Of a DNA stretch of 64,000 nucleotides, positions 12,057 to 15,104 are shown one piece after another. This DNA comes from Thermotogaceae bacterium (GTDB taxonomy: Bacteria; Thermotogota; Thermotogae; Thermotogales; Thermotogaceae), in assembly GCA_027077795.1 (NCBI GenBank), contig JALWTT010000015.1, positions 62,001 through 126,000 of the forward strand, given 5' to 3'. Position 1 is the stretch's first letter. Every line of letters starts with the position of its first letter. A program made the translations under genes and the position numbers. The notes beneath the pieces are model-generated. The model was not told the DNA's origin. It worked only from the letters and a program-made list of their open reading frames with translations, and searched no databases.

Positions 12057-12986
12057 TCAAGTCAAACTTATCTTCTTGGAAATCTCTCTGACGGACCATT
12101 TAACCGAGGGAGTTCTATAAGGCTGACAGGTATTATCCAGCTTAACTATCCAAAAATCCCTGTGCTTTTCCACCAAAATGTTGTAATGCTGTTCAAAACC
12201 ACCGTCAGAGGATACGATCTTTAAAAGGTGCGTATTCTCGTTTGAAGATGAGAAAACCTCTTTAACCACGAACACCTTTTTACCACTCTTGAACACTTTC
12301 CCCACGAGTAATTTGAGCTTTCCAGAGTCTAGAAAATCTATTTTCTGGTGCACATCTTCTCCTCCCCATGCAATTCTCTCGACGGTTGCTGAGCGGACCT
12401 TTTCCGCCCTTATGAGGTATGTGTGCCTTCCCATGGACAACCACTTTTTTTCGTACCTCGTTTGAACTTCCCTTCTTTTATCCACCATCACCGGGAATAC
12501 TCTGAAAAGTCCACTGGAAAGAATCTTATCATACACTTCCTGTGAATATTGCCTATTGTCTGTCATGAGTTCAAAAACTCCGTCGCTTTTCAACACAGCA
12601 GCTAGGGTTTCAACGAAATCCCCGTGTGTTATTCTCCTGCCTTCGTGTTTTTTCTTGCTCCAGGGGCATGGAAAGTTAATGTACACATGGCTCACCGAAT
12701 CGTTTGGAAAGAGTTCTCTCAACCCAAATCTTCCATCGATCATAACCAGTCTGACGTTTTCCACACCATAGCGATAGAACTTTTTCTGCGCCTTGACAAA
12801 AGATGTTATTGAGAGTTCAAATCCAATGAAATTCACTTCCGGCATCTTCCGTGCTTGATGCAGGAGAAATTCACCGTTCCCAAAACCAATTTCAACTCTC
12901 ATTTCGGATTCCCTTCCAAAGATTTTCCCCCAGTCAAGTGGAAGTTCCTCTCTTTCGGGTTTAATATGGTATCTAAGCCATTCCAT
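12057..12986 (-). CDS. trmB: tRNA (guanine-N7-)-methyltransferase with C-terminal extension
   Basis: This protein methylates G46 of tRNA using SAM. Of 309 residues, the first 200 or so form the TrmB domain: the SAM site VEIGFGNGEFLLHQAR near residue 32, and the family motif seen here as NFPCPWSKKKHEGRR (the usual Asp after NFP is Cys). About 100 further residues form a beta-rich extension, which I believe also occurs in Thermotoga homologues. ATG 12986 is chosen because GGAGGG sits five bases upstream; the frame extends 21 codons further into the preceding gene. The 49-base gap to the next gene shows no terminator. Confidence 0.92.
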   Translation of the reverse strand: MEWLRYHIKPEREELPLDWGKIFGRESEMRVEIGFGNGEFLLHQARKMPEVNFIGFELSITSFVKAQKKFYRYGVENVRLVMIDGRFGLRELFPNDSVSHVYINFPCPWSKKKHEGRRITHGDFVETLAAVLKSDGVFELMTDNRQYSQEVYDKILSSGLFRVFPVMVDKRREVQTRYEKKWLSMGRHTYLIRAEKVRSATVERIAWGGEDVHQKIDFLDSGKLKLLVGKVFKSGKKVFVVKEVFSSSNENTHLLKIVSSDGGFEQHYNILVEKHRDFWIVKLDNTCQPYRTPSVKWSVREISKKISLT

Positions 12987-13033
12987 GTGATCCCTCCAAA
13001 ACGATTTTATCAAGCATGTCTTGTATGGTTCTT

Positions 13034-14515
13034 CTAGCTTATGTTCCAAAATTTTTTCACTAAGTCACTCCATAAAAGAGCACTTTTGAACTTGAATCCA
13101 ACCATTCTGTCGTCATTGGAATAGAAGAACACCTCTCCTCTTCCCTCAGTTATGAAGGTTCTAACATCTTCCTTTTTCAGGATTCTTCTGCCATATTTGA
13201 TCGCATTTTCGCTGAACGTGACCAGCACCCTCTTCCCTAGAGACTTTCCATATGGGTCTATCAATTCACCCTCCTCGCTGTAGCATGGAGTGAGTGAGCT
13301 GTATACTTCATCGTGAATGTTCCAGAGTTCTCCCACAGTGGGCTTTTTTACCTCAAAGCCGCACCTTTCACATTTCAACCCTCCTTTACTAGATGAAATA
13401 CTGTGAAATTCCTTGCATTTCGGACACCTATAGATGTACTTTTCAACCCCTTTGTATGAGGGATACCTGTCATCTGGGGATACAGAGGGTTTTTCTAAAA
13501 ATTCTTCTAATTCTCTCAAATTCTCAAAGCACCTAACCCTGGCGAAAACCTTACCCGGTAGGAACTTCTTCCCCCATCTGGGGTAGAGAAGGTGGGCTTT
13601 TTCTATGCGAATTCCTATTAGAGGTTTCGGGACTTTCTGTGTCAACTTGTCGAAACCTTCTTTGACGCCGATAAATCTTCCATCCCAACTTCTCTCAGAC
13701 TCTGGAAATATCCCTATTCTTCCATTTCTTTTCACGTAGGAGATGATCTTTATTATCGCTCTCGTATCAGGTTTGTGCCTTTTTATCGGGAAACTCCCAA
13801 CCAATTTGAGTAGCCATTTATTTCTCTCGAAGTGAAAGTACGATATAGGAAAGGAAACGAATCTTGAAAGAGTATATACTATGACAGCAAAGTCAAGGTA
13901 TGTAACATGGTTTGCGACGACCATATATCCTTTTTCTGGAATTTCACATTCCTTCTCGAATTTGATATTCCATGTAAACCATGAAATTACATGGCCAACG
14001 TAGAACAGAAGTTGGAAAAGCAAAGGAGGACATCTGTCATCCATTCTAGGAAGTCTTGGAAAAAACGCTGGGACTTCTTTCCGATACTCTTCGTATTCTG
14101 GGAATTTCTTCAAAAGCTTTCTCTCCTCATAAAAAGCGGTGAATAAGACTATAAGCGTAGAAAATGCTGAGGATGCTATGAGAGATCCTAAGTTTCCAAA
14201 TTTCAAGGCTAGTCCATTGATATACAGGATGAATCCGAAATACATTGGGTGACGGCACATGGAGTAAGTTCCGCACTTTAAAAGCTTTTTCGGTGGGCAG
14301 CAGTATGCCACCCCTCCACCATCTATGAGAGCGTATGAAGCGCTTATTAAACCAAATGTAAAACCAATCCATCCTAGTACCGTACCAGCAATCTTTCCCC
14401 ACTCGGGAATCATGTGACTATCCATGTAACCACCGATTGCTACAACAGCAATGGGAAGTACTATCCAGTAGAAGATAAAGAGAATTGCCCCAATCGCTAT
14501 GTGCTTCCAATACAC
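13034..14515 (-). CDS. Fusion: isoprenylcysteine-methyltransferase-like membrane domain, PlsC acyltransferase, zinc ribbon
   Basis: This 493-residue protein has three parts. Residues 1-170 are a membrane methyltransferase-like domain of the ICMT/PEMT type, with GTYSMCRHPMYFGFILYING and a closing EERKLLKKFPEYEEYRKEVP. Residues 180-350 are a PlsC-type acyltransferase, with NHVTYLD (the NHx4D catalytic box) and FPESERSWDG (an FPEGxRS variant). Residues 355-405 carry CPKC and CERC pairs that form a zinc ribbon, followed by a short C-terminal domain. Membrane-lipid modification is the natural inference; the substrate is unknown. GTG 14515 follows GAGGTGA, whereas the upstream in-frame GTG (14539) has no ribosome-binding site. 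Confidence 0.85.
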   Translation of the reverse strand: MYWKHIAIGAILFIFYWIVLPIAVVAIGGYMDSHMIPEWGKIAGTVLGWIGFTFGLISASYALIDGGGVAYCCPPKKLLKCGTYSMCRHPMYFGFILYINGLALKFGNLGSLIASSAFSTLIVLFTAFYEERKLLKKFPEYEEYRKEVPAFFPRLPRMDDRCPPLLFQLLFYVGHVISWFTWNIKFEKECEIPEKGYMVVANHVTYLDFAVIVYTLSRFVSFPISYFHFERNKWLLKLVGSFPIKRHKPDTRAIIKIISYVKRNGRIGIFPESERSWDGRFIGVKEGFDKLTQKVPKPLIGIRIEKAHLLYPRWGKKFLPGKVFARVRCFENLRELEEFLEKPSVSPDDRYPSYKGVEKYIYRCPKCKEFHSISSSKGGLKCERCGFEVKKPTVGELWNIHDEVYSSLTPCYSEEGELIDPYGKSLGKRVLVTFSENAIKYGRRILKKEDVRTFITEGRGEVFFYSNDDRMVGFKFKSALLWSDLVKKFWNIS

Positions 14516-14519
14516 TCTA

Positions 14520-15104
14520 TCACCTCGCGAAAGCTGCACTCATGTATTCCACTAAGTTGTTAAGAATGTGAACAACTATCCCGGGTAATATGGATCCGCT
14601 TATTTCCCTCAGATACGCCATGAATATTCCAGCTATGAACACCTGTGGAAACAGGACAAATGGATGGAATATGGAGAATATCAACCCAGATATCACGATA
14701 GTCCATTCCGTTTTGAGCCTCTGGCGAAGATACTCTTGCATGTACCCCCGGAACATGAACTCTTCAACGGTTGGAGCTACTAGCGTTATGAGCAAAAATA
14801 CCGAGGCAGAATTTACATTCACGTTATCCTGAACTTTGAGCTGGACGGGAAAGAGGATGTTCACAATGTATCCTATAGAGAAGAAAATGGGAAAGGCCAC
14901 TAGACCCTTCAGAATCCCAGATTTCACATCGGGTATCCAAAACTTGAACCATATAGTGTCCTTTTTCATGAAGAGCAAGGTTATGGCCAGCATCAGGGAA
15001 TAATAAGCGTATGACATATACATGCCGGAAATTCCTCCTGTTGTTGGGAGTACAGCCAAGGCTACTATCAAATAGATCAGAAATCTGGTTGTTGATATCT
15101 TCAA
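14520..15104 (-). CDS. CPBP family intramembrane metalloprotease
   Basis: At 194 residues with about six hydrophobic segments, this shows the three CPBP (CAAX protease/bacteriocin-processing) motifs. These are EEFMFRG (EExxxR, about residue 115), FSIFH (FxxxH) and HILNN (HxxxN), which together form the zinc site in the membrane. Family members cleave prenylated or membrane substrates. It is followed at once by the ICMT-like fusion, notable because eukaryotic CAAX processing pairs the same two activities, but no CAAX substrate is visible here. It starts with TTG, overlapping the previous stop (TTGA). Confidence 0.88.
   Translation of the reverse strand: MKISTTRFLIYLIVALAVLPTTGGISGMYMSYAYYSLMLAITLLFMKKDTIWFKFWIPDVKSGILKGLVAFPIFFSIGYIVNILFPVQLKVQDNVNVNSASVFLLITLVAPTVEEFMFRGYMQEYLRQRLKTEWTIVISGLIFSIFHPFVLFPQVFIAGIFMAYLREISGSILPGIVVHILNNLVEYMSAAFAR

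Follow-up and report, generated by a model that had tools for sequence, protein, structure and literature searches.

The window, a stretch of 64,000 nucleotides from a Thermotogaceae genome, carries at 13034..14515 (-) a gene whose 493-residue product joins a PEMT/ICMT-type methyltransferase, a PlsC acyltransferase, a zinc ribbon and a PH-like domain in this order. It is one real membrane-protein gene with four domains, the fourth of which is PH-like only by its relatives. Judged from its sequence, the fusion would be a bifunctional integral-membrane enzyme that acylates and methylates one and the same lipid, other than phosphatidylethanolamine (PE), a reading to which we assign a probability of about one half. 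That it makes a modified membrane lipid is probable. The fusion combines known domain families in a new way, each single domain coming from a well-known superfamily; no description of the architecture was found in the titles and abstracts of the open literature, subscription papers being outside the scope of that search.

Inspection of the open reading frames of the window showed that the frame at 13034-14515 (-) is unbroken. The start codon is GTG at 14515, and a ribosome-binding-site-like GAGGTGAT (14519..14526 (-)) lies ahead of it. An earlier note on this DNA had named a frame error joining two genes as a possible source of the fusion. Because the single-frame fusion is kept across 29 genomes of the phylum, such an error, the joining of two genes and a chance origin were all ruled out. 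The same note had described a three-domain protein; the methyltransferase, PlsC and zinc ribbon are indeed in one frame, but its count overlooked the C-terminal domain at residues 393-493.

Domains and catalytic motifs

The N-terminal methyltransferase domain (residues 1-158, 14042..14515 (-)) contains hydrophobic helices according to its hydropathy. Domain searches with PEMT/ICMT and PlsC models, as proposed in the earlier note, bore out two of the three families: PEMT (PF04191) matched residues 71-138 with 31.5 bits (curated cut-off 25) and Acyltransferase (PF01553) matched residues 184-304 with 42.8 bits (cut-off 23), but ICMT (PF04140) stayed under its cut-off (18.8 versus 24 bits). By profile, the domain matched the solved ICMT enzymes 4a2n (E = 2.5e-9), 5vg9 and 5v7p. 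The SAM-site-type motif RHPxYxG lies within GTYSMCRHPMYFGF (residues 82-95, 14231..14272 (-)), which aligned to the equivalent motif of 4a2n, and is followed by an EE motif at residues 130-131 (14123..14128 (-)). G82, H89, P90, Y92 and E130 were invariant in 17/17 N-domains aligned outside the Mesotoga branch, so named after G025, which we take to be M. prima. Within that branch the first motif has been eroded to RHPFN, RHPFS or RQPLY, and EE has been replaced by QE or IE. A Pfam search of the source genome yielded no second PEMT domain besides that of the fusion.

The PlsC domain (residues 160-345, 13481..14038 (-)) contains all four PlsC motif blocks and matched 5kym by profile (E = 1.1e-18). 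The NHx4D box, which had been called complete from the first reading, is NHVTYLD (residues 202-208, 13892..13912 (-)), in which H203 and D208 did not vary among 21 fusions. Block III, FPESERSWDG (residues 270-279, 13679..13708 (-)), has E272, R275, W277 and D278 invariant in the same alignment (A1), as is P298 of block IV. N202 is substituted throughout family f9 except in G018, with H and D retained. The NCBIfam model for 1-acylglycerol-3-phosphate acyltransferase (TIGR00530) was not reached (39.4 versus a cut-off of 102.95 bits), and a separate PlsC-like ORF of 257 aa was found elsewhere in the source genome. With both sets of catalytic motifs undamaged in most members, the fusion is likely to have two active sites.

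The zinc ribbon, C364-x2-C367 ... C382-x2-C385 (residues 364-385, 13361..13426 (-)), is predicted from two CxxC knuckles; Pfam matches around residues 359-391 were weak, none over cut-off, and the four Cys were invariant in 21 fusions and 13 short forms. For the C-terminal ~100 residues of the window protein (residues 393-493, 13037..13339 (-)) no direct Pfam or PDB match was obtained. When the tail alignment (A6) was compared by profile with that of its counterparts in other phyla (A9), the two matched at 92.5% probability (E = 5e-7). A9 and its members in turn matched, weakly but mostly, centaurin-delta PH domain 2cod (E = 0.004), YcxB, bPH_11, Vps36 and FERM_C, all of which we take to be PH folds. 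These relatives point to a PH-like C-terminal domain. AlphaFold, run on two input sequences per job, gave poor models, with pLDDT of 47 for the full protein and 49 for the tail. In a permuted protein of G423 (L163:4343-5650 (-)), a zinc ribbon and a similar PH-like tail stand ahead of PlsC instead of after it, so the ribbon and tail together look like a movable unit.

Distribution, neighbourhoods and domain gain or loss

A search repeated with a profile found the near-full-length fusion in 29/103 Thermotogota genomes, distributed over three families: f1 (the window's own), f8 and f9. The gene of G087, counted among these 29, is truncated where its contig stops, and an additional genome, G022, has the N-domain alone before its contig ends. 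Loss in all relatives, which the earlier note had regarded as a possible refutation, was therefore not what the survey found. Three genera of f1 carry the fusion, which was not found in g4 or in any of the seven genomes of the sister genus g5; in f8 it is present in 9/10 genomes, and in f9 one genome (G018) has two tandem copies. The domain order is retained in all 29 genomes at identities of 24-70%, the same range in which the 21 fusions of alignment A1 resemble the window protein, and 21/21 of these matched PEMT, ICMT and Acyltransferase at E of 0.1 or better. Between close relatives, dN was about two to three times greater in the N-domain than in PlsC; for dN/dS, dS was saturated in most pairs.

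A scan of genome contigs found a single relative, and none was found in the viral contigs scanned. Among plasmids no record covered most of the fusion protein, the matches listed being single-domain. Several degraded forms were also observed. The short PlsC-zinc ribbon genes L033, L034, L049 and L050 (in G085, G019, G081 and G082) contain in-frame stops, as if decaying or misassembled. At a contig end of G033 (L111:5-633 (-)) a methyltransferase part adjoins a zinc ribbon part in a different frame and without PlsC, which may be a decayed copy or a misassembly.

The gene upstream of the fusion (14520..15104 (-)) encodes a CPBP membrane protease, as had been noticed before; it is Rce1-like (Pfam, 79 bits, 3.4e-22). 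In those f1 relatives for which upstream sequence was available this gene adjoins the fusion; in f8, in f9 and in the other phyla it does not. In f9 the genes ahead of the fusion are those of a two-component system, a response regulator and a histidine kinase; in L071 the kinase gene and the fusion share 4 bases. In f8 the neighbours differ again. Because the neighbours vary in this way between f1, f8 and f9, the neighbourhoods name no common pathway, and the CPBP gene, confined to the window's family, does not indicate a CAAX-type pathway. Downstream lies a trmB-like gene (12057..13049 (-); NCBIfam TIGR00091, 134 bits), which has 16 bases in common with the end of the fusion gene. Its product is long (330 aa), with the Pfam methyltransferase match at residues 50-211 and ~110 C-terminal residues that have no assignment.

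Outside Thermotogota, samples of ~390 genomes around the window's genome and 386 around G108, which overlap, contained the full fusion in three genomes of two small phyla. G108 and G390 belong to one of them, the N-domain of G390 starting in another frame of the assembly, and G412, with a fusion of 601 aa, belongs to the second. Sister PlsC-ribbon-tail proteins without the methyltransferase were found in other Thermotogota families (13 sequences, A2) and also in G103, G243 and G256. G256 and G108 have a SecD neighbour in common, but the methyltransferase is present only in G108; nothing methyltransferase-like adjoins the short gene of G256. In the PlsC tree, a grouping of all fusions into a single clade was rejected (p-AU = 1e-4), which speaks against a single origin without losses; the N-domain must therefore have undergone more than one gain or loss. 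Between these two, the N-domain tree was too weak to choose (p-AU = 0.34).

Proteins of other composition were encountered as well. Free-standing PEMT-type proteins are common. In G256 a PEMT-type domain is joined to the prolipoprotein diacylglyceryl transferase Lgt (L118:465-1655 (+), Pfam 3e-14, the contig ending inside the gene), and in G307 one is joined to a polysaccharide deacetylase (L110:8-1234 (+), Pfam 1.4e-35). L125:426-1877 (-) and L143:479-1930 (-) combine such a domain with a C-terminal extension of ~310 aa that has no Pfam match.

Candidate functions and lipid substrate

In the bifunctional reading, the N-terminal ICMT-fold domain would take a methyl group from S-adenosylmethionine and place it on a polar group of the membrane lipid, and the PlsC domain, acting at the cytosolic face, would move a fatty acyl chain onto a hydroxyl either of that lipid or of its lyso-precursor. 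A docking or regulatory role might fall to the module formed by zinc ribbon and PH-like tail. The earlier proposal of a one-protein modification of a lipid head group or tail is still the best reading, given that most members preserve the motifs of both catalytic sites. The Lgt fusion is in its favour, since there a similar methyltransferase domain is joined to another lipid transferase. Motif erosion in the Mesotoga branch, the methyltransferase-free sister forms and the varied neighbourhoods count against it. The two putative activities are separable, because A2 does without the methyltransferase and the domain is present or absent by genus at the SecD-linked locus.

The strongest alternative, which we consider possible but unlikely, is an accessory lysolipid acyltransferase whose N-domain is a methyltransferase-derived membrane anchor or lipid-binding scaffold with little or no catalysis. 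It would explain why the PlsC-zinc ribbon-tail unit occurs without the N-domain (A2; L107), why in the Mesotoga branch H and D of PlsC persist but the motifs of the methyltransferase degenerate, and why dN is higher in the N-domain. However, H89, P90, Y92 and E130 do not vary among the 17 N-domains from outside that branch, and a simple anchor would not require them.

Somewhat more doubtful is the notion that two active enzymes with different substrates share one chain for co-expression or co-localisation only. Both domains are also found apart, as free PEMT-type proteins and as PlsC-ribbon-tail proteins, and the joining of PEMT-type domains to Lgt and polysaccharide deacetylase indicates a module that changes partners. 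Nevertheless, the fixed order and the short linker (from residue ~155 to the start of PlsC at ~160) in 29 genomes fit coupling better, without being decisive.

The substrate is likely not PE. PS decarboxylase is required for PE by the usual route, and the family (PF02666) was absent from 16/18 genomes checked, the source genome included, with positive controls matched; methylation of PE was thereby disfavoured. The Pfam names PEMT and Acyltransferase would suggest a fusion of phosphatidylethanolamine N-methyltransferase with a housekeeping LPA acyltransferase; this is therefore highly improbable, the separate PlsC-like ORF and the TIGR00530 score of 39 against 103 also opposing it. An ornithine-type aminolipid was disfavoured too, as the OlsB-type family was found in 0/18 genomes.

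A connection with unusual thermotogal membrane lipids had also been suggested. G091, which is presumably T. maritima, encodes the 5kym PlsC letter for letter over the stretch compared, and in this genome the phylum search and the profile search found no fusion and no short form. Since T. maritima nonetheless makes diabolic-acid PG lipids (PMC8788747), a link of the fusion to these lipids is unsupported. Because the source genome has another PlsC-like ORF, its core lipids could be made independently of the fusion. The fusion is an accessory enzyme, as judged from this additional gene and from the 7/7 genomes of g5 that do without it.

Returning to the bifunctional enzyme, a bolder and rather unlikely extension is that it performs a one-protein step toward a new lipid class, a methyl-capped and acylated glycerolipid or glycolipid. 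The dual-site enzyme would then sense or dock to the membrane through its ribbon-PH tail, and the sister enzyme would make the unmethylated version. The pairing, retained by three Thermotogota families and present in two further phyla, predicts a particular lipid not yet on record, and the forms with and without the methyltransferase offer a natural comparison for the effect of the methyl group.

Comparison with known proteins

The N-terminal domain resembles the ICMT/PEMT membrane methyltransferases (4a2n, PF04191, PF04140) in its hydrophobic helices and in GxYxxxRHPxYxG followed by EE. It differs from them in being part of a larger protein, in its sub-cut-off ICMT score and in that the PE route was not found. 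The second domain is PlsC by sequence and has NHx4D and FPE-x2-R in common with the 1-acyl-glycerol-3-phosphate acyltransferase 5kym, which we take to be the PlsC of T. maritima. Compared with that enzyme, the fusion adds the methyltransferase, zinc ribbon, PH-like tail and the ERSWDG and PRW signatures; it also falls far under the TIGR00530 cut-off, in a genome with an additional PlsC-like ORF.

Two further groups share parts of the architecture. In the PlsC-zinc ribbon-tail proteins (A2; L107, L108 and L109) the order of PlsC, zinc ribbon and C-terminal tail is the same, but the N-terminal methyltransferase is missing; L107 and the fusion L105 occupy the same SecD-linked locus in their genomes. 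The PEMT-Lgt (L118) and PEMT-polysaccharide deacetylase (L110) proteins, in contrast, lack PlsC, ribbon and tail, and carry a methyltransferase module of this kind at the N-terminus with a different membrane or envelope enzyme as its partner.
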